Source: Tubulanus polymorphus (lineage: Eukaryota; Nemertea; Palaeonemertea; Tubulaniformes; Tubulanidae). Taken from it: a stretch of DNA of 64,000 bases. Each line of letters starts with the position of its first letter. Within the stretch, counting starts at the first letter, position 1. The notes under the pieces are model-generated. The model saw only the letters and a list, made by a program, of their open reading frames with translations. It was not told the DNA's origin and did not search any database. Made by a program: the position numbers and the translations under genes. The stretch covers positions 26,554,650-26,618,649 of the forward strand of contig NC_134026.1 of NCBI RefSeq assembly GCF_964204645.1, in the 5' to 3' direction. Positions 24,332-41,549 of this stretch are shown here, piece after piece.

Positions 24332-26932
24332 ATGATTCGTAGACGGAATAGAATTATTGTCTGTTTTCAATTTTCTCTGATTATCTGCATTGTTAGTCAA
24401 GGATTATCGACCGATGAACCGACGAAATATGTAACAAAATCAACAACAACACCAGGTATTTCAGTGATGAATCATATATTATCTCGTACGTCGGATCATG
24501 GACGTTTAAACTCTAGTTTGTACGTCACTGGTCGGATGAAGATTCTAAATAGAAAATATCAAGTGAAACGTTATAGTTTTGATTTAGATGTTAATTTCTT
24601 TACGTAGTTCCAAAATGTAACATTAAAGCGGAGCTGGGTGAACCCCGAGACCGCGCTTCGAGTAACGCAACATTCACTTTGGATCTTATCTACGATGACG
24701 ACAATGATCAACAGTCCGATATCAAAATGCACTTGAACACAGCATCGATCAAGTGCGAAAAATTAGATCGTTTGAAAGGAATAAGAGTCACGCCTCCGAA
24801 AACCAAATGGGATATTGACTGGTTTGTACACACATTCAAGGTGAGTTATGTATGTTTTATTATTGTCGAAAGTCTCTCATCGATGACGATAAACATGAAG
24901 TATCAATTCACAAAACGTGGGAACGGATTTATATTCTTCTTAAATTATCAGATTTTAAAGAACAGTAATCTTCAGAAATCAATAATGAGTGATAGCTGGA
25001 TAGAAAAGGATGTTGAAAACTTTGCTTTAAGAAACAAAGGTAAATCTCCAGTCAATGTTCTAGCAAAATATCCGCCCTCGAATTCTGATGTCATCACGAC
25101 ATATAAAGTGTATTGTCTTTTAAGTAGAAATCAGAACGCTGTATCATATATTAGAATTCCGAAAGCAAGCACAATGAATCAATCAAAGAAGATGACCAAA
25201 ATGAGCGAAATATTTGGCTACAACGGCAATTAGAACAATTAGAACAAAAAATTTAAGGAAATAATAAACTATGTCAGCTAAAAACATAATATTCGCTTCA
25301 GGTGTGACATGGGAAGCAAATATTCTCACAGGAAATCGATCGGAACGATTTGGAGAAACATTGGCTAATATTTGGCTGAAACTTTACGGTGGCGGTCAAT
25401 TTAATTCACGTGGTATCAGCGTAAAGGCAACAGTTCACAATGGAGAACGACATTTTACATTTCATACTGTAGATGTTGGTGATCTTTCGGCCATCAAGAT
25501 ATGGCATGACGGTAAAAACGGTTTTCCTGAATGGAACCTTGAACAGGTAGGTATACAGAAAGAAATACGATATCATAAATAAAAATAAATGGTGATTGGT
25601 TCAACGTATTTCTGAATTGAATTGATTTGATTAATTGTTAAAGGTTAAACTACGTCGTTCCGATAGATCTATAGATTATCTTGCCAATTGTGACTGTTGG
25701 ATCACAACTGATGGAATGATTCGCCAGGGAATATTTCTGGGAAGATCGCCGAAATTAGATGGTAAGTTTTCTTGTTTAATTATTGATGTAGATACTATAA
25801 TGAAACTACTTTTTATTCAATCATCTCATTTTCAAATTCAGCCATTCTAGAAATAGAAATCCCGAAAGTAACTATCGAAGCGAATCAAATCACCACTACC
25901 GTAGAAGCTATCACCGAGAAGGAACCAACAGACGCAAATACACCCCCCTGGAAATTTTTTGTTAATTACGTCGGATGGATTGTGTGTGCCATTGTCATTT
26001 TGATGTTTGTAGTGCTTATTATGATAGGAAAAAAAAGAAAGAAAAGAAAGAAAAAGGGAGATATCACATTAGATCCGATAGTCAATCGTGCTCAAGGTAT
26101 ATCTGCGGTAGATAAAGCGAAATAAGTCTGTTTAACTAGGGATAGAGTTCCAATAATTTAATACCGATATATCTTTTAAGGAGATGATGCTCGTCTTGAT
26201 ACTTGTATCGAAAACAATATTCCAGCGACCCCAAAATTGTCGGAGAATACATTTCCAACTGCAACAAACGGTGTGCAGATTCACGTTCGGCACGAACAGA
26301 GTAACGGCAATAGGGACAATCTTGCCGTTGGTAAAAACGCAATTGCGACATTTATTGACGAAGATGATCAAAAAATGTATGTCGAACCTGACCAAATTGT
26401 TGATGCCCAAGAATTCCAAAATCAGATCGTTTCTGAACAGATCACAGCTCCACAATGGAAGAACAGGCCGGGTCCATCGGTAAGTATCTTTATTTCAACA
26501 TAGAACTCAAGTTCTATGATTTCAAGTCGCATCTCAGTAGATTCGATTCGCCGTAGATTATGTAATGTTACAATTATTGATATCCCGAAGTAAGAAGGCG
26601 ATAAATGATAATTTTATATACCAAAACGATATCGTGTATCTTATTTTCAGAATGAGCCTCTTTATCTGGAACTAGTAAAAGACCTGCAAAGCGAACTTGC
26701 TGGCAGCAGAAATCGCTTATCCGATCCTGTAGATGAGGATTTGTACGGAATTGCATCTCCTAAATTAAGCGCAACAGGAACCTTTGCAAATGCTTTGACT
26801 CCAGGAGCAAATTCTCCAATTTATGAGAACATACTTCATTTAAATAATGGGCCTGCTTATCCCGATATTTCAGAGGCAGATGCGATTTATGAGAATCATC
26901 ATTTTCCCAGTTATGACAAAAAAGGAAAGTGA
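24332..26932 (+). CDS. single-pass PLAT-domain receptor with ITAM-like cytoplasmic tail
   Basis: Exons 24332-24455, 24608-24840, 24952-25039, 25302-25546, 25644-25761, 25842-26096, 26181-26479 and 26651-26932 join in phase to about 547 residues. Residues 1-25 form a basic then hydrophobic signal peptide. Residues about 42-148 are an unassigned ectodomain. Residues about 149-265 match the PLAT/LH2 beta-sandwich (start VTWEANILTG, then DVGDLSAIKIWHDG, and a closing C-x-CWI strand); this domain usually binds lipid or protein. One transmembrane helix lies at about 310-332 (GWIVCAIVILMFVVLIMIG), followed by a stop-transfer run of Lys/Arg. The roughly 215-residue tail carries YLEL (459), YGIA (486), YENI (512), YPDI (524) and YENH (534). 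YENI and YPDI are 8 residues apart, which fits the ITAM spacing. I know no family with this architecture. AATAAA at 27077-27082, 27492-27497 and 27666-27671. Topology and signalling are inferred. Confidence 0.75.
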
Positions 26933-27847: not shown

Positions 27848-28795
27848 TCATCGACAATTACAAAATTTCTTTAATTCCACTCGAATATCACGACCAGTCA
27901 CAACGTAAAAGAAGAAATTCAGAGAATAATTCCATGTTGTTATTAGATCACACATAGTCAAAGGAATGTCTAGGGTTGGCATTTCGGGATAAATTTGACA
28001 CGCTGGCCATATGGTGTTCGGAGATACCATAGAAACCACGAAGAATATAGATGTTGCCGACACCATTATTGATACTTGAGTCGAAACGGAAGATACCACT
28101 TTGCTTTTAGAAAAATCCCGTTTTCTTTGTACAAGTGTAATAATGATAACGGTAGTTGTGATGGACAATACGGTAGATGGAATGAATGAACTTTGAGTAG
28201 TATTAGCCCAGTAGAGAAAACTTGAAGAATAAAATGTGACACAACCAACGCCAGGTACATACACTACTTCCCACCACATCTGAATGTGGCACACAAACAC
28301 AAATAGCAGAATTAAAGATAGACAAATAGAGACGGTTTTACGGGTCCAGAATCGCGGGGCTGTGAACGGGAAACGAATGACCGACATCCGCTCTGTCGCT
28401 ATTATCACCAGAATCAGAGGACTGGCAGTTCCAAAGTAAATCCACACATAGTCAACTAAGCTACATATGAATGCACTATGGATAAATGTCCCCAGTCCAA
28501 TGTCTGTTAAATGATAAACGATCTCACAAACTGTCGTTATCAGCACGAACAATAAAACGATACAATCCGAAATAGCCAGCACGCTAAATGGAAGACTGTA
28601 AGACTGTTGTCTGAATTTTGGTCTGGACATCACTACAACTATCAACGGATTTCCGACCAAACCAAAAACAACGCATAAACCATTGTTTACGCTACGTATA
28701 AGTAACCGGGTTGCACTGATGTGGTATCGAGGTATCCAGAACATTTCCGCTACTGACAGCATATAGGAATTTGATGTGCCGTTGTCAAAATCCAT
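27848..28795 (-). CDS. rhodopsin-class GPCR, peptide-receptor type, intronless
   Basis: A 315-residue protein from one exon with seven hydrophobic segments. Start: the ATG at 28793-28795 (MDFDNGTSNS). The open frame continues upstream to a stop near 28890 without another ATG, so a 5' exon is not excluded. TM1 carries the GNPLIVVV signature. A Cys at the TM3 start and a Cys in loop 2 (GVGCVTF) can form the usual disulphide. The TM3 end reads ERM instead of DRY. TM7 has NYSLNFFFYVVTG in place of NPxxY, a form common in invertebrate FMRFamide- and other neuropeptide-type receptors. The C-terminal tail is short and ends in a Cys pair. Two N-glycosylation sequons are near the start. It is probably a plasma-membrane receptor for a neuropeptide; the ligand is unknown. 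Confidence 0.82.
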   Translation of the reverse strand: MDFDNGTSNSYMLSVAEMFWIPRYHISATRLLIRSVNNGLCVVFGLVGNPLIVVVMSRPKFRQQSYSLPFSVLAISDCIVLLFVLITTVCEIVYHLTDIGLGTFIHSAFICSLVDYVWIYFGTASPLILVIIATERMSVIRFPFTAPRFWTRKTVSICLSLILLFVFVCHIQMWWEVVYVPGVGCVTFYSSSFLYWANTTQSSFIPSTVLSITTTVIIITLVQRKRDFSKSKVVSSVSTQVSIMVSATSIFFVVSMVSPNTIWPACQIYPEMPTLDIPLTMCDLITTWNYSLNFFFYVVTGRDIRVELKKFCNCR

Positions 28796-29918
28796 CAGGC
28801 TGCGTGCATCTTGACCTAACACATCAATTCCGTCAAGTACTGGTATATGGTTGAATCGATTTCCTGATTTAATTCGACTATGTTCGTTACGTTAGAGTTA
28901 GGCGATTGGTCTGCAGTCTCTAAACTAATTTCATGTATAAATTGTTGGTAAATTCTATTACCATGCAACTTCAATAAAACTTCAATATATCTATTTCTCA
29001 AATTATTGTCTGAGGATATTATTGAAGAATATATATGATACTGAAATCGTCGTTCAGTATATTTAAATGAGTGTATTCTGTCTATTAATTGGTTAAACAG
29101 GTTTACATTTCATTCATTGTAACTAAGCACTAAGTACAGTATTCAAATATCATGTATGCAATACCAAGTTTGCTTGCAATACACAATAGTGATGCATAGT
29201 AATTTATTGGTTTAGGGATTTAGGGGATGGAGATTCAAAAGCGAGAGTATAAGTAGAGAATGTTTCCAGGTACTGGTTAGCTGATGATTAGGCAATGCAT
29301 CTATTTTATAATTGACATGCATAACCAAAAATAAATGGAGAAATAGGGGACAGTATACTACTGACCACACTACGATTCAAGAAATCATTCAAAATGTTAC
29401 TACTTTTGGTAGAATGATAAAGAACATGACGAGATCATTTTGAACATGTCTTCAAACATGACGTTGCTCCCATTGTTTTGATTTTGATCAATTTGTAAGT
29501 TGGAACTGTATGCCCCCTCCTCCTCCCCCCCCCCCCCAATATACGGCTGCAAGAGTGCTTCTCGTACCTGACGTGTGACGAAGATTCAATTAGACATTGC
29601 CATTTACAAATAAAAGAATTGATTTTCTTATGCTATGCGAAAGTATTTGTGTTCATAAATCGACCAATACATGCTTATGATATAAGTTCGATAAGTACGA
29701 TTGTTATAGTTTTGTCTTCATCACTTAATAACATTGATCCTCCATTTATTCCAATGCTTGAAAATCAAGCGTTTGTGGAATCGTATTTTGAAACGTCGTA
29801 CTGGGCATGTGTCCACTCAAAATAATTTCGGAGAATTCTGAAAATATCAACAAAACATTGCATAAGAAATGATTGACACTGCAATCCTTATACAATTTTA
29901 GTAAATAAAACCGCTGTT
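28796..29918. other. intergenic, upstream of the peptide GPCR
   Basis: No supported gene. It holds the promoter or 5' leader side of the minus-strand receptor and a C-rich stretch with 13 consecutive C at 29525-29537. Confidence 0.5.
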
Positions 29919-30746
29919 TCACGACGGACCTTGAAAAGTAAGTTTTCCATCACCGTCTAAATCTGCGTCTGACAGAACACTGTGTACATCTCGTCGAATT
30001 GTATCGTTCCCATCTCCCAGAATACTGAGAGCTTTTCGTAGATCAGATTTGTTCAGGTAGCCTTTATCGCCGATGTCGAATTGCCGGAATGTCTCCTGTA
30101 GGACAGCGTTGTTAGTTTTTGCCTCTTCCAGGTGAACCGCCATAAATGCTAGAAATTCTCCAAAATCGACTGTACCATCACCTTATATATAAGATAATCT
30201 AAATTGCTACGTTCAGATCGTAAAAAGAGTTGTTACAATACACGAAAGAAGAATTTACCTCCCGAATCAATTTCTGCAAGCATTTCATCTAATTCTCTAT
30301 CACTGTACAATAGTCCCATTCGTTCCATTACATTTGCCATTTCAGACTTTGAGACATGTCCATCGCCATTGGTATTAAACAATTCAAAAGCTTCTTTTAT
30401 CTCTATTGATATAATAACGATTCACACTGTGTAACGTAGGCAATGTAACTATCATAATAAAACATTTGAATTTACTTTCATATTGAAAATCTAAGAAAAA
30501 ATATCATTTTTACACAAACAGTGAAACACAAATTGCACTTATTATACTACGTACTAGATCACATCCCAATGATTTAATTACCTCCGATTAACCTTTCATT
30601 TAGTGCGTGAGCCTGAAAATCAAGTTACACATTTTAGCGACATTTTTAAAGAGACATTTTTTTTTACTTTCTTAAAAAAACGAAATCATTACAATACGTA
30701 CCCATGATGTTGAGTTGAGATCGCTATATCCAATGCTAGTCGCCAT
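29919..30746 (-). CDS. calmodulin-like EF-hand protein, copy A
   Basis: Exons in transcription order: 30702-30746, 30582-30612, 30259-30402, 29919-30181, about 160 residues. The N-terminus is MATSIGYSDL, then ALNERLIG and EIKEAFELF aligned with the start of calmodulin. EF1 loop NTNGDGHVSKSE has Asn at position 1; EF2 DSGGDGTVDFGE has Gly at position 3; EF3 DIGDKGYLNKSD is degenerate; EF4 DLDGDGKLTFQG lacks the final Glu and the protein stops two residues later. The C-terminal half of EF4 is therefore missing. Loops 1 and 2 could still bind Ca2+ weakly; 3 and 4 probably not. Its structure matches the neighbour at 31333-32224 exon by exon, so the two arose by tandem duplication. A further spliced last exon cannot be excluded. 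Confidence 0.8.
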
Positions 30747-31332: not shown

Positions 31333-32224
31333 TTAATTGACCGATTCTTTAGGATTAATTTCAATGCAGGATCGATCACCACTGCAGAATCTACCTTGAA
31401 AAGTAATTTTTCCATCACCATCCAAATCTGCGTCTAACAGGACACTGTGTACATCTCGTCGAATTGTATCGTTCCCATCTCCCAAAATACTGAGAGCTTT
31501 TTGTAGATCAGATTCATTCAGGTAACCTTTATTACCGATGTCGAATTGTCGGAATGCCTCCATTAGGACGACGTCACTGGTTTTTGCTTGGTCCAAGCTA
31601 ATCACCATAAACGACAGAAATTCCCCGAAATCAACTGTACCGTCACCTATAGCAAAATATTTAACTCTAAAGTTCACGCACAAAAGTTGCGTTCAGCAAA
31701 CAACAAATATGTTTACCATCTGAGTCAATTTCTGCAAGCATTTCGTCCAATTCTGAATCGCTGTACAATAGCCCCATCCGTCTCATTACATTGGCTATTT
31801 CAGACTTTGATATGTGTCCATCGCCATTTGTGTCGTATATTTCAAATGCTTCTTTCAATTCTGTATAAGATATTCGATCATAAGCCAAGCAAATAGAAAT
31901 TTAGCAAAGAAATCATGATAATCAATCTAAAAAGATTTATTTGGTAGATTGCTCGATTTTCTGTTATTCAAACGACGTAATGCGTACATGTTCATAGATT
32001 AGAACCGGATACTTACCTGCGATTAACTCCTCCGAAAGTGCATTAGTCTAAAATAAGAGTGAGATTTGAAGATATATGGTCTAAAATAAGAGTGAGATTT
32101 GAAGATATATGAATATGAAAGCTATTCCTAAGCACGTTGAATGTTATATGTGGTTTTCATTCTGAATTCTCTCACATACCCAGGATGTTGAATTAAGATC
32201 GCTATATCCAACGCTAGTCGCCAT
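31333..32224 (-). CDS. calmodulin-like EF-hand protein, copy B
   Basis: Exons in transcription order: 32180-32224, 32017-32047, 31717-31860, 31333-31646, about 177 residues. It opens MATSVGYSDL, then TNALSEELIAELKEAFEIYD. EF1 DTNGDGHISKSE and EF2 DSDGDGTVDFGE have all canonical Ca2+ ligands. EF3 DIGNKGYLNESD is degenerate (Gly at 3, Lys at 5). EF4 DLDGDGKITFQG lacks Glu at position 12 and runs into a unique Cys-containing tail that ends KESVN. A donor-like GTAGAT follows the FQ codons, so an unseen exon might replace this tail. Relative to copy A, this copy keeps better EF1 and EF2 loops. It is probably a lineage-specific Ca2+ sensor; the partner is unknown. Confidence 0.82.
32046..32111. repeat. 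33-bp tandem duplication across a splice acceptor
   Basis: A 33-bp unit (starting gtctaaaataagagtg) is present twice, head to tail and identical: 32046-32078 and 32079-32111. The copy at 32046 contains the acceptor of exon 2 of the minus-strand calmodulin-like gene B, so the second copy provides a duplicate acceptor 33 nt upstream in the transcript. Confidence 0.9.
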
Positions 32225-38200: not shown

Positions 38201-39788
38201 GGAAGCATGTTTAGTTTTTTCTTTATCCATAACTACATTAGACAATTAAACAGAGCTATCGTCTATTTTGTTGAGTATTTGGTGATTTGACGACTACGCT
38301 CTTGCAGATGTTAGTTCGATCATAAATCAGGTATAATTACTCTAAAGTTTTTATCATCGATAGAATAATGGCTCTTCAACCCGACTATATTTAAGTCAAG
38401 AATCATATTTGCATCATCGATGTACATTAGTACATTAAATGCGATTCTTTATTTCCCATGGAAAACATTCGATACAAAAGCACCCTTGAGTGAATAAAGT
38501 GTTGCTGAAAACGGACATTTCATTTATATCATATAATCAGTAATATTGGATATGCTTATTTTTCAGGTGGTGAATGCGGAAGAAACAAAACCAAAGGAAA
38601 GTTATTTCGCACTAGAGGAATGAATAGAAGAATATCCGCGTAATATTTCACGGTCGCAGTTTTGCTGAAATTAATTGAAGTGAAGTAATTGCTAATTCGC
38701 TGTTACATTCACTTCAGAGACAACACAAAATTACGGGTGATTAAATCCTCCAGACTGTACACGCCATCAACAACAACAACAACTACAACATCACGTAACC
38801 GTGTATAATAAGTGTATATACGTCCATTAAGCCTGGTTTAATGAAACGGGTCGAATGCGAGGATAACGTAAGATACGTGAAATACGTAAGATAGTTTTTT
38901 TAATGATAGTTTAGAAATCTATCTTCTTTGAGTTTGCAAAAACTGGATCGAAAAATCTTGATTGATTCGTGAATGAGATTTGATCAACTGCGCTTCAGCA
39001 ACACGGTTGGATGAAACACAAAAGAAATGTGACGACGCCGATAAAAATGCACGCACTACTCACAACTTCTGAACCGGGATTTGTGATGCAAAAATGGGCT
39101 GTTACAGAACTGACTCATTCATGATGAGGACAATTTTCGCCATGATTACGCTTATTAACTTGGGATACGCCAAACTCGTGTTACGAAAACTAGCTACGAG
39201 GAATTAGCCATAAAGTGAGACATTGGTTCACATTTACCGCCAGCTATTTTACCTCATACGTGACACTGACGAGCAAAGATAGCGACTGCCGAAGCTATCG
39301 TGCGACATGTCTCAATGGCATGGAAAAATATACCGAATATTCGTTTTCCCGTGTTGAAAATTAATAAAACTACGTGATCGTTACAGCTGCTGTGGTGCTT
39401 TGGTAAAAACCAAGATTCACATCTTCACTATCAGTTATCAATCAGGCTTCAGTATTAAACACAAGTTGTGGCAATTACACTCGCCTGCCGCATATCGATT
39501 TTTTCTATTTCGAAAAGATCAGGGAAACAATCATGAAAAAGAATTGACGAGCTTTGTGAAAGAGAGCTTTCATGACGCTATACGCCAATCTAGAATAGTC
39601 ACAGGAAAAATAACAGTAAATCAGAAAATGCATACGAGTTACCTTAAAGTGGATGTTATAAACATTGATTGTGATAAATAATCGAACTGATCAGAACGAA
39701 GAACGTCGTTATTAGTATCGGGTTAGATCCAAAATCAAGCGTTTCTTCTTATCGACGACGCGCGTAGAATAAATCAAATTGATCAAAA
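32225..39788. other. gene-poor 7.5-kb region between calmodulin-like gene B and the amine receptor
   Basis: No exon with recognisable protein content was seen on either strand. Small structures: an 8-bp-stem hairpin at 33080-33100 and a consensus CRE octamer TGACGTCA at 34166-34173 in a CpG-richer patch (about 34.1-34.4 kb) that could be a promoter or 5' exon. An acceptor-like site lies near 38567. The likely content is 5' untranslated exons and regulatory DNA of the downstream GPCR; this is inference. Confidence 0.4.
34166..34173. promoter_or_regulatory. candidate CRE (TGACGTCA)
   Basis: The full palindromic CREB/ATF octamer, with a further TGACG half-site about 45 bases upstream (around 34121), in a patch richer in CpG than its surroundings. 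It may mark a promoter for a plus-strand transcript toward the amine receptor; function is unproven. Confidence 0.35.
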
Positions 39789-41549
39789 ATGGATGCATCT
39801 TTTAATCTATCGTTTGAGAGCGGAATCATTAAAAATAATGACTCAAGAGGTTTCCCCGTGAATCGATCACTAACACTGTCAAACTCGTCTGAATATTATA
39901 CGGATCAAAATGACAACACCCATGTAGAAACGTTAGCCATCGCCTGCGTGGCAGCGGTCATTATTTTTACGACGGTTTGCGGTAATATTCTAGTCGTGGT
40001 GGCTGTAGTCACCGAGAGACGACTTCGTAAAGTCGGCAACTCATTCATCGTTAGTCTGGCGGTTAGTGATCTACTCGTAGGAATAGTTGTTACACCGTTT
40101 TCGATCGTTTACGAAGTGATGGGCCAGTGGGAACTGGGCCATATGCTTTGTGACATCTGGATATGTCTCGATGTAACTTGTTGTACGGCGAGTATAATGA
40201 ATTTGTGCATAATCAGTTTCGACCGGTATAACGCGATTACTCAACCGTTACAGTATGCTTGTAAAAGGACGCCACAACGCGCATGTCTGATGATATTAGG
40301 GGCTTGGATGTATTCGGTGATAATAGCGCTTCCACCGATATTAGGATGGCGAGAAACTTCGTCCTTAAGAGAAGCGAAAACGTGTCTGATTTCACAAGAT
40401 AAAGGTTATACAATATTTTCGACCGTTGGTGCATTTTATTTGCCGTTGATCGTCATGTTTTATCTGTATGGCTGGGTTTTCCGAGCAACTTTAAAAAGAA
40501 AGCGTGAGTGGATTCCAGGTCCTGGATCCAGTCAGGTCAGCGTTAGAATGAACAAAGTCCGCATTGATGAAGGTTCTATTCTTTACGCGGGTGAAACCGC
40601 TGATTGTAAAACCAATTCGACTTTAAATAAAACATCGAAGAAATCGAAGAGCAACAAAATAGACACGATTAACCCATACATAGGGTATCGGTTGATGCAG
40701 AATGGCGATAATAATCTTAATTCAAGTTGCGAGAGTCTTACCACCTATGTTATATCTCCGAGAAAAAATAGCCGTCTTCTTCAAGTAGAAGCACCAAATT
40801 CACAACCGAGGACTAGCATTGGTGGAATTAGTGTCACATGTGACGGCTCAACAACATACGATTTTTCCGGAAGAAACAGCGCTTATTCTGATGGCGAATT
40901 AGCCGAAAATAAATTGACGTCGAAACGACTATCGATACAGCACGAAATGAGATCTTTCGATATTAGAAATTCCGTTGACAAACCTGGAAGAAATGAGGGC
41001 TCAGGTAATAATGCTTTGAGAACGTTTCGCACAGCCGCAATTGCCATCAACTTCGCGCAGTCGCTGCCGAAGAAAAAGAACAATATTTTAGTGAGTTTCA
41101 AAACGTTTTTCCGCAGACGAACTGTTGAATTCGAGACTGACGAAGCCAGCATTAGCAACGATTCAAATCCCGAACAAGAAGCCAGTAATTTAAAGCGAAA
41201 AGTACGAAAACTAATTCGACCACGCAAAAAACACATTTCAGTGTCACAAGAAAAGCGTGCCGCCAAAACTCTCGGAATAATAATGGGTTGTTTTGTGGTA
41301 TGTTGGCTTCCGTTTTTCGTGTTAGCCGTGATGCTGCCATTTTGTCCTAGCTGTGACATACACCCGGCCATTACGAGTTTTTTCACGTGGCTCGGTTATT
41401 GTAACTCGGCCCTGAATCCGATTATATACACATTCTTCAATCAGGATTTCAGGAAAGCTTTTAAGAAAATTTTATGCCTTCGAGGAAATGCCTTTTATAA
41501 AGCTATGTGTGGCGTCTGCTCACGCAAGTCGTGCTCGTATCCCGTATAA
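39789..41549 (+). CDS. biogenic-amine GPCR, serotonin-receptor type (5-HT1/5-HT7-like), intronless
   Basis: 586 residues in one exon. N-glycosylation sequons at N6, N17, N25 and N32. TM1 has GNILVVVAVV (65-74). TM2 has NSFIVSLAVSDLLVG. TM3 has the amine-binding Asp at 128 (LDVTCCTASIMNLC) and DRY at 145-147; C121 and C199 form the loop disulphide. Loop 2 to TM5 reads CLISQDKGYTIFST, close to 5-HT1/5-HT7 receptors. Loop 3 is very long (about 235-490), Ser- and Lys-rich. TM6 has CWLPFF (505-510) and TM7 NPIIY (543-547). The C-terminal tail is short and Cys-rich (possible palmitoylation) and ends SYPV. Serotonin is the most likely ligand class by motif; octopamine or another amine is not excluded. 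AATAAA at 42000-42005. Confidence 0.88.
   Translation: MDASFNLSFESGIIKNNDSRGFPVNRSLTLSNSSEYYTDQNDNTHVETLAIACVAAVIIFTTVCGNILVVVAVVTERRLRKVGNSFIVSLAVSDLLVGIVVTPFSIVYEVMGQWELGHMLCDIWICLDVTCCTASIMNLCIISFDRYNAITQPLQYACKRTPQRACLMILGAWMYSVIIALPPILGWRETSSLREAKTCLISQDKGYTIFSTVGAFYLPLIVMFYLYGWVFRATLKRKREWIPGPGSSQVSVRMNKVRIDEGSILYAGETADCKTNSTLNKTSKKSKSNKIDTINPYIGYRLMQNGDNNLNSSCESLTTYVISPRKNSRLLQVEAPNSQPRTSIGGISVTCDGSTTYDFSGRNSAYSDGELAENKLTSKRLSIQHEMRSFDIRNSVDKPGRNEGSGNNALRTFRTAAIAINFAQSLPKKKNNILVSFKTFFRRRTVEFETDEASISNDSNPEQEASNLKRKVRKLIRPRKKHISVSQEKRAAKTLGIIMGCFVVCWLPFFVLAVMLPFCPSCDIHPAITSFFTWLGYCNSALNPIIYTFFNQDFRKAFKKILCLRGNAFYKAMCGVCSRKSCSYPV

Follow-up and report, generated by a model that had tools for sequence, protein, structure and literature searches.

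Does the window analysed here, a 64-kb stretch (C2:26554650-26618649) of a 267.8-Mb animal genome, encode an immune-type receptor in which a PLAT ectodomain is joined through a single membrane pass to an ITAM tail, as a sequence-only reading had proposed? Signalling through ITAMs is used by Fc receptors, by the chains of the TCR and BCR, and by Draper of Drosophila, which works with the Syk-related kinase Shark. The ITAM receptor ectodomains that we know of are of Ig, EGF and lectin type, with no lipid-binding type among them. Furthermore, we know of no described receptor in which two PLAT domains lie outside a one-pass membrane protein that carries a tyrosine-rich tail.

The gene structure is an ORF-based prediction. 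Splicing of the eight predicted exons (24332-26932, + strand) yields an uninterrupted 547-aa ORF, with GT-AG boundaries at all introns and the reading frame preserved throughout, in agreement with the eight-exon splice put forward earlier. The predicted features are as follows.

24332-24455, + strand: exon 1, signal peptide MIRRRNRIIVCFQFSLIICIVSQG and a short Thr-rich linker, called from an ORF with an n-region and h-region; donor GTATTT
24608-24840, + strand: exon 2, initial three quarters of the putative, diverged PLAT1 (residues 42-119); phase 1 entry, donor GTGAGT
24952-25039, + strand: exon 3, end of the putative PLAT1 (residues 120-148); phase 0 entry
25302-25546, + strand: exon 4, PLAT2 through four residues past the conserved Trp (residues 149-230); phase 1 entry
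25644-25761, + strand: exon 5, end of PLAT2 (residues 231-269); phase 0 entry
25842-26096, + strand: exon 6, juxtamembrane stalk, predicted TM helix (residues 312-332) and basic stop-transfer block, called from hydropathy
26181-26479, + strand: exon 7, first half of the tail, including Tyr421 (MYVEP), called from the open frame and GT-AG sites
26651-26932, + strand: exon 8, second half of the tail, with Tyr459 (YLEL), Tyr486 (YGIA), the ITAM-like pair Tyr512/Tyr524, Tyr534 (YENH), Tyr542 and the stop codon
26822-26869, + strand: ITAM-like stretch YENILHLNNGPAYPDI (residues 512-527)

The PLAT-TM-tail gene is single-copy in the genome. Skipping of exon 3 would lose the frame between exons 2 and 4. 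Intron 2 (24841-24951, 111 bp) is itself in frame and stop-free, exons 2 and 3 sharing a single 212-codon open frame, and its retention would add 37 residues inside PLAT1.

The exon joins are predicted from genomic DNA, and unspliced read-through of exon 6 would generate a short alternative tail ending ...RAQGISAVDKAK. In a rival gene model, the PLAT exons would encode a protein that is secreted or has a short tail, with exons 7 and 8 forming part of a different transcript. However, exons 6, 7 and 8 are in frame and have good GT-AG sites, no separate gene start is evident, and the neighbouring gene lies on the opposite strand. An error of this kind in the gene model seems very unlikely.

The N-terminus of the predicted protein has a basic n-region followed by a hydrophobic stretch, and a single TM helix, in which residues 313-331 average 3.2 in hydropathy, is followed by the block KKRKKRKKK; thus the signal peptide, single TM helix and Lys/Arg stop-transfer block described previously were all recovered. 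Because the basic block is C-terminal to the helix, a type I topology is predicted, in which a single-pass membrane protein would present the PLAT pair outside the cell and a tyrosine-rich cytoplasmic tail of 215 aa inside. A TMEM154 match returned by the profile search (E 0.027) was rejected, the similarity being confined to the TM region.

We then considered the ectodomain. Residues 163-252 match Pfam PLAT (PF01477) with 27.6 bits in the whole protein and 31.5 bits when the domain is taken alone, compared with a gathering cut-off of 23 bits. Among solved structures, the only matches were to the PLAT proteins RAB6IP1 and polycystin-1, and these were weak (E about 1). An HMM built solely from other PLAT exons of the same genome gave this region 49 bits (E 2e-17). 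On these profile scores, PLAT2 is a PLAT domain. The same own-genome HMM also matched residues 42-148 (11.3 bits, E 1.1e-5), a score that was reached by 0-2 of 3000 shuffles at each of four profile-building stages. This second region, PLAT1, was not matched by Pfam PLAT in the profile search of the whole protein, carries no HD(N)xxG signature, and did not align significantly with PLAT2 in a direct comparison. A match of residues 42-148 to ApeC (E 0.15) fell under the cut-off, and PLAT was preferred.

The exon architecture bears on both domains. In PLAT1 and PLAT2 alike, phase-1 outer introns flank a phase-0 inner intron; the inner intron of PLAT2 lies exactly four codons past the conserved Trp (WNLEQ, then GTAGGT), and that of PLAT1, also in phase 0, lies two codons beyond the PLAT2/LOXHD1-like position. 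Together, the own-genome profile and the repeated exon architecture strongly indicate the identity of PLAT1, and the ectodomain very probably consists of two PLAT domains, of which PLAT1 is degenerate. The earlier proposal of a single PLAT ectodomain thus holds for PLAT2, which exceeds the Pfam cut-off, but had overlooked the diverged domain at residues 42-148. Since an AlphaFold model of exon 4 alone (81 aa, no alignment) reached a pLDDT of 48 and offered no usable detail, the assignment of the PLAT fold rests on the profile matches and the intron positions.

Two separate LOXHD1-like multi-PLAT arrays are encoded elsewhere in the genome (C11:8112776-8142935 and C2:19228716-19257649), and many of their PLAT domains are split four codons after the conserved Trp (WFLDK then GTAAGT, and WHLDK then GTGAGT; C11 and C2). 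The lipoxygenase PLATs of this genome have their intron elsewhere, around profile column 72. Given this shared intron plan and position, both PLATs of the window gene are strongly indicated to be kin of the LOXHD1-like repeats. We interpret them as a duplicated LOXHD1-type module. The arrays differ in having many PLATs, whereas the window gene has two together with a signal peptide, a TM helix and a tail; in the stretches read, the sequence beyond the last PLAT of the arrays showed no obvious TM helix joined to a tyrosine tail. Most of the remaining PLAT loci found adjoin lipoxygenase or PKD-channel exons or form PLAT arrays. Three further loci that could not be clearly assigned to a family were inspected by eye, one polycystin-like with a TM helix immediately before the PLAT (C10:1.128 Mb), one with ankyrin-like repeats (C4:3.955 Mb) and one beside charged low-complexity sequence (C8:10.57 Mb), and none of them showed the arrangement of TM helix and tyrosine tail seen in the window gene. 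An exon-by-exon search of the genome revealed no second PLAT-TM-tail gene, and a genome search with the tail found no relatives. The lone weak tail match, at C4:14798858, adjoins a reverse-transcriptase-like reading frame and was not accepted as a paralogue.

What might the tail do? As noted previously, YENI and YPDI are exactly 8 residues apart, and the stretch at residues 512-527 (YENI-x8-YPDI) satisfies the core ITAM pattern YxxL/I-x(6-8)-YxxL/I in the predicted tail. When the tail was shuffled with its composition preserved, 1.0% of the resulting sequences contained the same pattern; by composition alone it is expected in about 500 proteins per average proteome, and about 13 chance occurrences are expected among 1500 tails of 150 aa. 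At this chance frequency, the match in the tail is a lead rather than a diagnosis. An acidic residue before the first tyrosine is frequent in ITAMs, if not strictly required, and positions -2 and -3 of Tyr512 hold none (GANSPI-Y). An ITAM reading is hence possible but weak.

The seven tail tyrosines are scattered, four have Ile or Leu at -1, and the YEN motif occurs twice; tyrosines preceded by [ILV] exceed expectation (p 0.02), and the tetramer IYEN is repeated within 26 residues (p 0.016). Neither the clustering of the tail tyrosines (p 0.19) nor their acidic context (p 0.63) departed from expectation. As several tail statistics were tried, modest support is all that can be drawn from the two or three that reached 1-2%. 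YENI, YPDI and YLEL also each match the Yxx-phi consensus, and could act as AP-2 sorting signals in an endocytic lipid or lipoprotein receptor that lacks kinase signalling; PLAT domains are known in general from lipid-handling proteins. Yet the number of Yxx-phi motifs in the tail is at chance level (3 versus 1.5 expected, p 0.16) and all three are distant from the membrane, and we consider an endocytic receptor of this type unlikely.

If the tail is phosphorylated, partners for it are at hand. A Syk gene at C2:4185220-4189191 contains collinear N-SH2, inter-SH2, C-SH2 and kinase exons. The locus was searched for with an approximate ZAP-70 SH2 query, and its identification rests on searches with the genome's own sequence, in which the best matches of the tandem SH2 were ZAP-70 (E 6e-27) and SYK (E 4e-20), and the kinase matched SYK with E 2e-68, a single chain scoring better (9p9u_A, deposited as EGF receptor). 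A Src-family kinase is encoded at C2:27.195 Mb, and inspection by eye identified an SH2-SH2-phosphatase of SHP2 type as well as Grb2-like and p85-like genes. Judged by homology, kinases able to use an ITAM-like pair, namely a Syk with tandem SH2 domains and a Src-family kinase, are thus encoded in the same genome. In Drosophila, the ITAM of Draper is phosphorylated by Src42A and then recruits the Syk relative Shark, which provides a precedent for an invertebrate ITAM receptor (PMC4503800).

These partners leave two ways of reading the tail. In a true ITAM receptor, Tyr512 and Tyr524 would be jointly phosphorylated and would bind both SH2 domains of Syk. The core spacing YxxI-x8-YxxI, the two kinases and the Shark-dependent precedent all speak for this, but the chance frequency of the pattern and the context of Tyr512 speak against it, and we regard it as rather unlikely. 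The ITAM receptor suggested by the sequence-only reading is thus partly supported: the core pattern and the encoded Syk and Src-family kinases are present, but hundreds of proteins would carry the pattern by chance. The tail tyrosines could instead be separate SH2 or PTB sites (for Grb2, Src, PI3K or SHP2) or form a scaffold, with a coincidental ITAM spacing. The dispersed tyrosines, the Ile/Leu residues before four of them, the two YEN motifs and the Grb2-like, p85-like and SHP2-like genes fit such an arrangement; the exact 8-residue gap between the two YxxI motifs is left unexplained by it, although chance suffices. We see in this a real possibility that nonetheless stays clearly below an even chance.

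The best overall reading, which we put forward tentatively and at slightly less than an even chance, is that of a LOXHD1-type double-PLAT receptor that signals through phosphotyrosine and SH2 docking. In such a receptor, the extracellular ligand of the PLAT pair would be either a protein partner or a lipid surface, and clustering by this ligand would allow a Src-family kinase to phosphorylate the tail tyrosines. SH2 proteins could then dock on the phosphorylated tail, which would serve as a tyrosine-based docking platform: pY-E-N at 512 and 534 would suit Grb2, and the spacing of Tyr512 and Tyr524 could let the Syk encoded in this genome bridge both with its tandem SH2. We doubt that Syk would be the main effector; independent SH2 docking seems somewhat likelier. 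We infer the ligand class, the phosphorylation, the recruitment of Syk and the cell type of this receptor, and its 'immune' and 'lipid-sensing' roles are putative in the same sense. PLAT domains have been tied to membrane association, and a phosphatidylserine pocket in polycystin-1 is under discussion (PMC11918491). A stronger proposal would place the protein in a new class of receptors coupled to Syk: its LOXHD1-type tandem PLAT ectodomain would detect lipoprotein or membrane lipid, such as the phosphatidylserine of dying cells, and an ITAM would carry the signal. This proposal appears quite unlikely.

Comparison with known systems helps to place this docking receptor. In polycystin-1, the PLAT domain is intracellular and follows TM1 of an 11-pass protein. 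Polycystin-1/PKD1 and the REJ family are likewise PLAT-bearing membrane proteins, and the sequence match to them is weak; unlike polycystin-1, the window protein is predicted to have its PLATs outside the cell, before one TM helix, and no PKD_channel match was found in the 64-kb window. PLAT lipoxygenases and lipases share the PLAT fold but are enzymes, and the lipoxygenase PLATs of this genome differ in intron position, as described above. With Draper/MEGF10 and the vertebrate ITAM receptors, the predicted protein has in common a single TM helix, a YxxI/L-x(6-8)-YxxI/L tail and the availability of Src- and Syk-family kinases. These receptors, however, have EGF/EMI or Ig ectodomains in place of PLAT, and a tested function where that of the PLAT protein is putative. 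A literature search covering few subscription journals returned no protein combining PLAT and ITAM. If the tail does signal through Syk, ITAM receptors would gain an ectodomain of lipid-binding type, new among them, and the finding would bear on the pre-vertebrate wiring of Src-ITAM-Syk signalling, in a lineage that has Syk and presumably lacks adaptive immunity. Even without an ITAM, a double PLAT displayed at the surface would link LOXHD1-type PLATs to cell-surface recognition.

Several other genes are found in the window. Directly downstream and convergent with the PLAT-TM-tail gene is a single-exon rhodopsin-type GPCR (27851-28891, - strand; 347 codons open) with a weak 7tm_1 match. Beyond it, two very similar exons, each encoding an EF-hand pair, lie about 1.4 kb apart (29922-30182 and 31336-31692, - strand) and look like the product of a tandem duplication of a calmodulin/troponin-C-like gene. 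Finally, an intronless 588-codon rhodopsin-type GPCR (39783-41546, + strand) matches 7tm_1 with 263 bits; by eye it is amine-receptor-like, and it has a long third intracellular loop.
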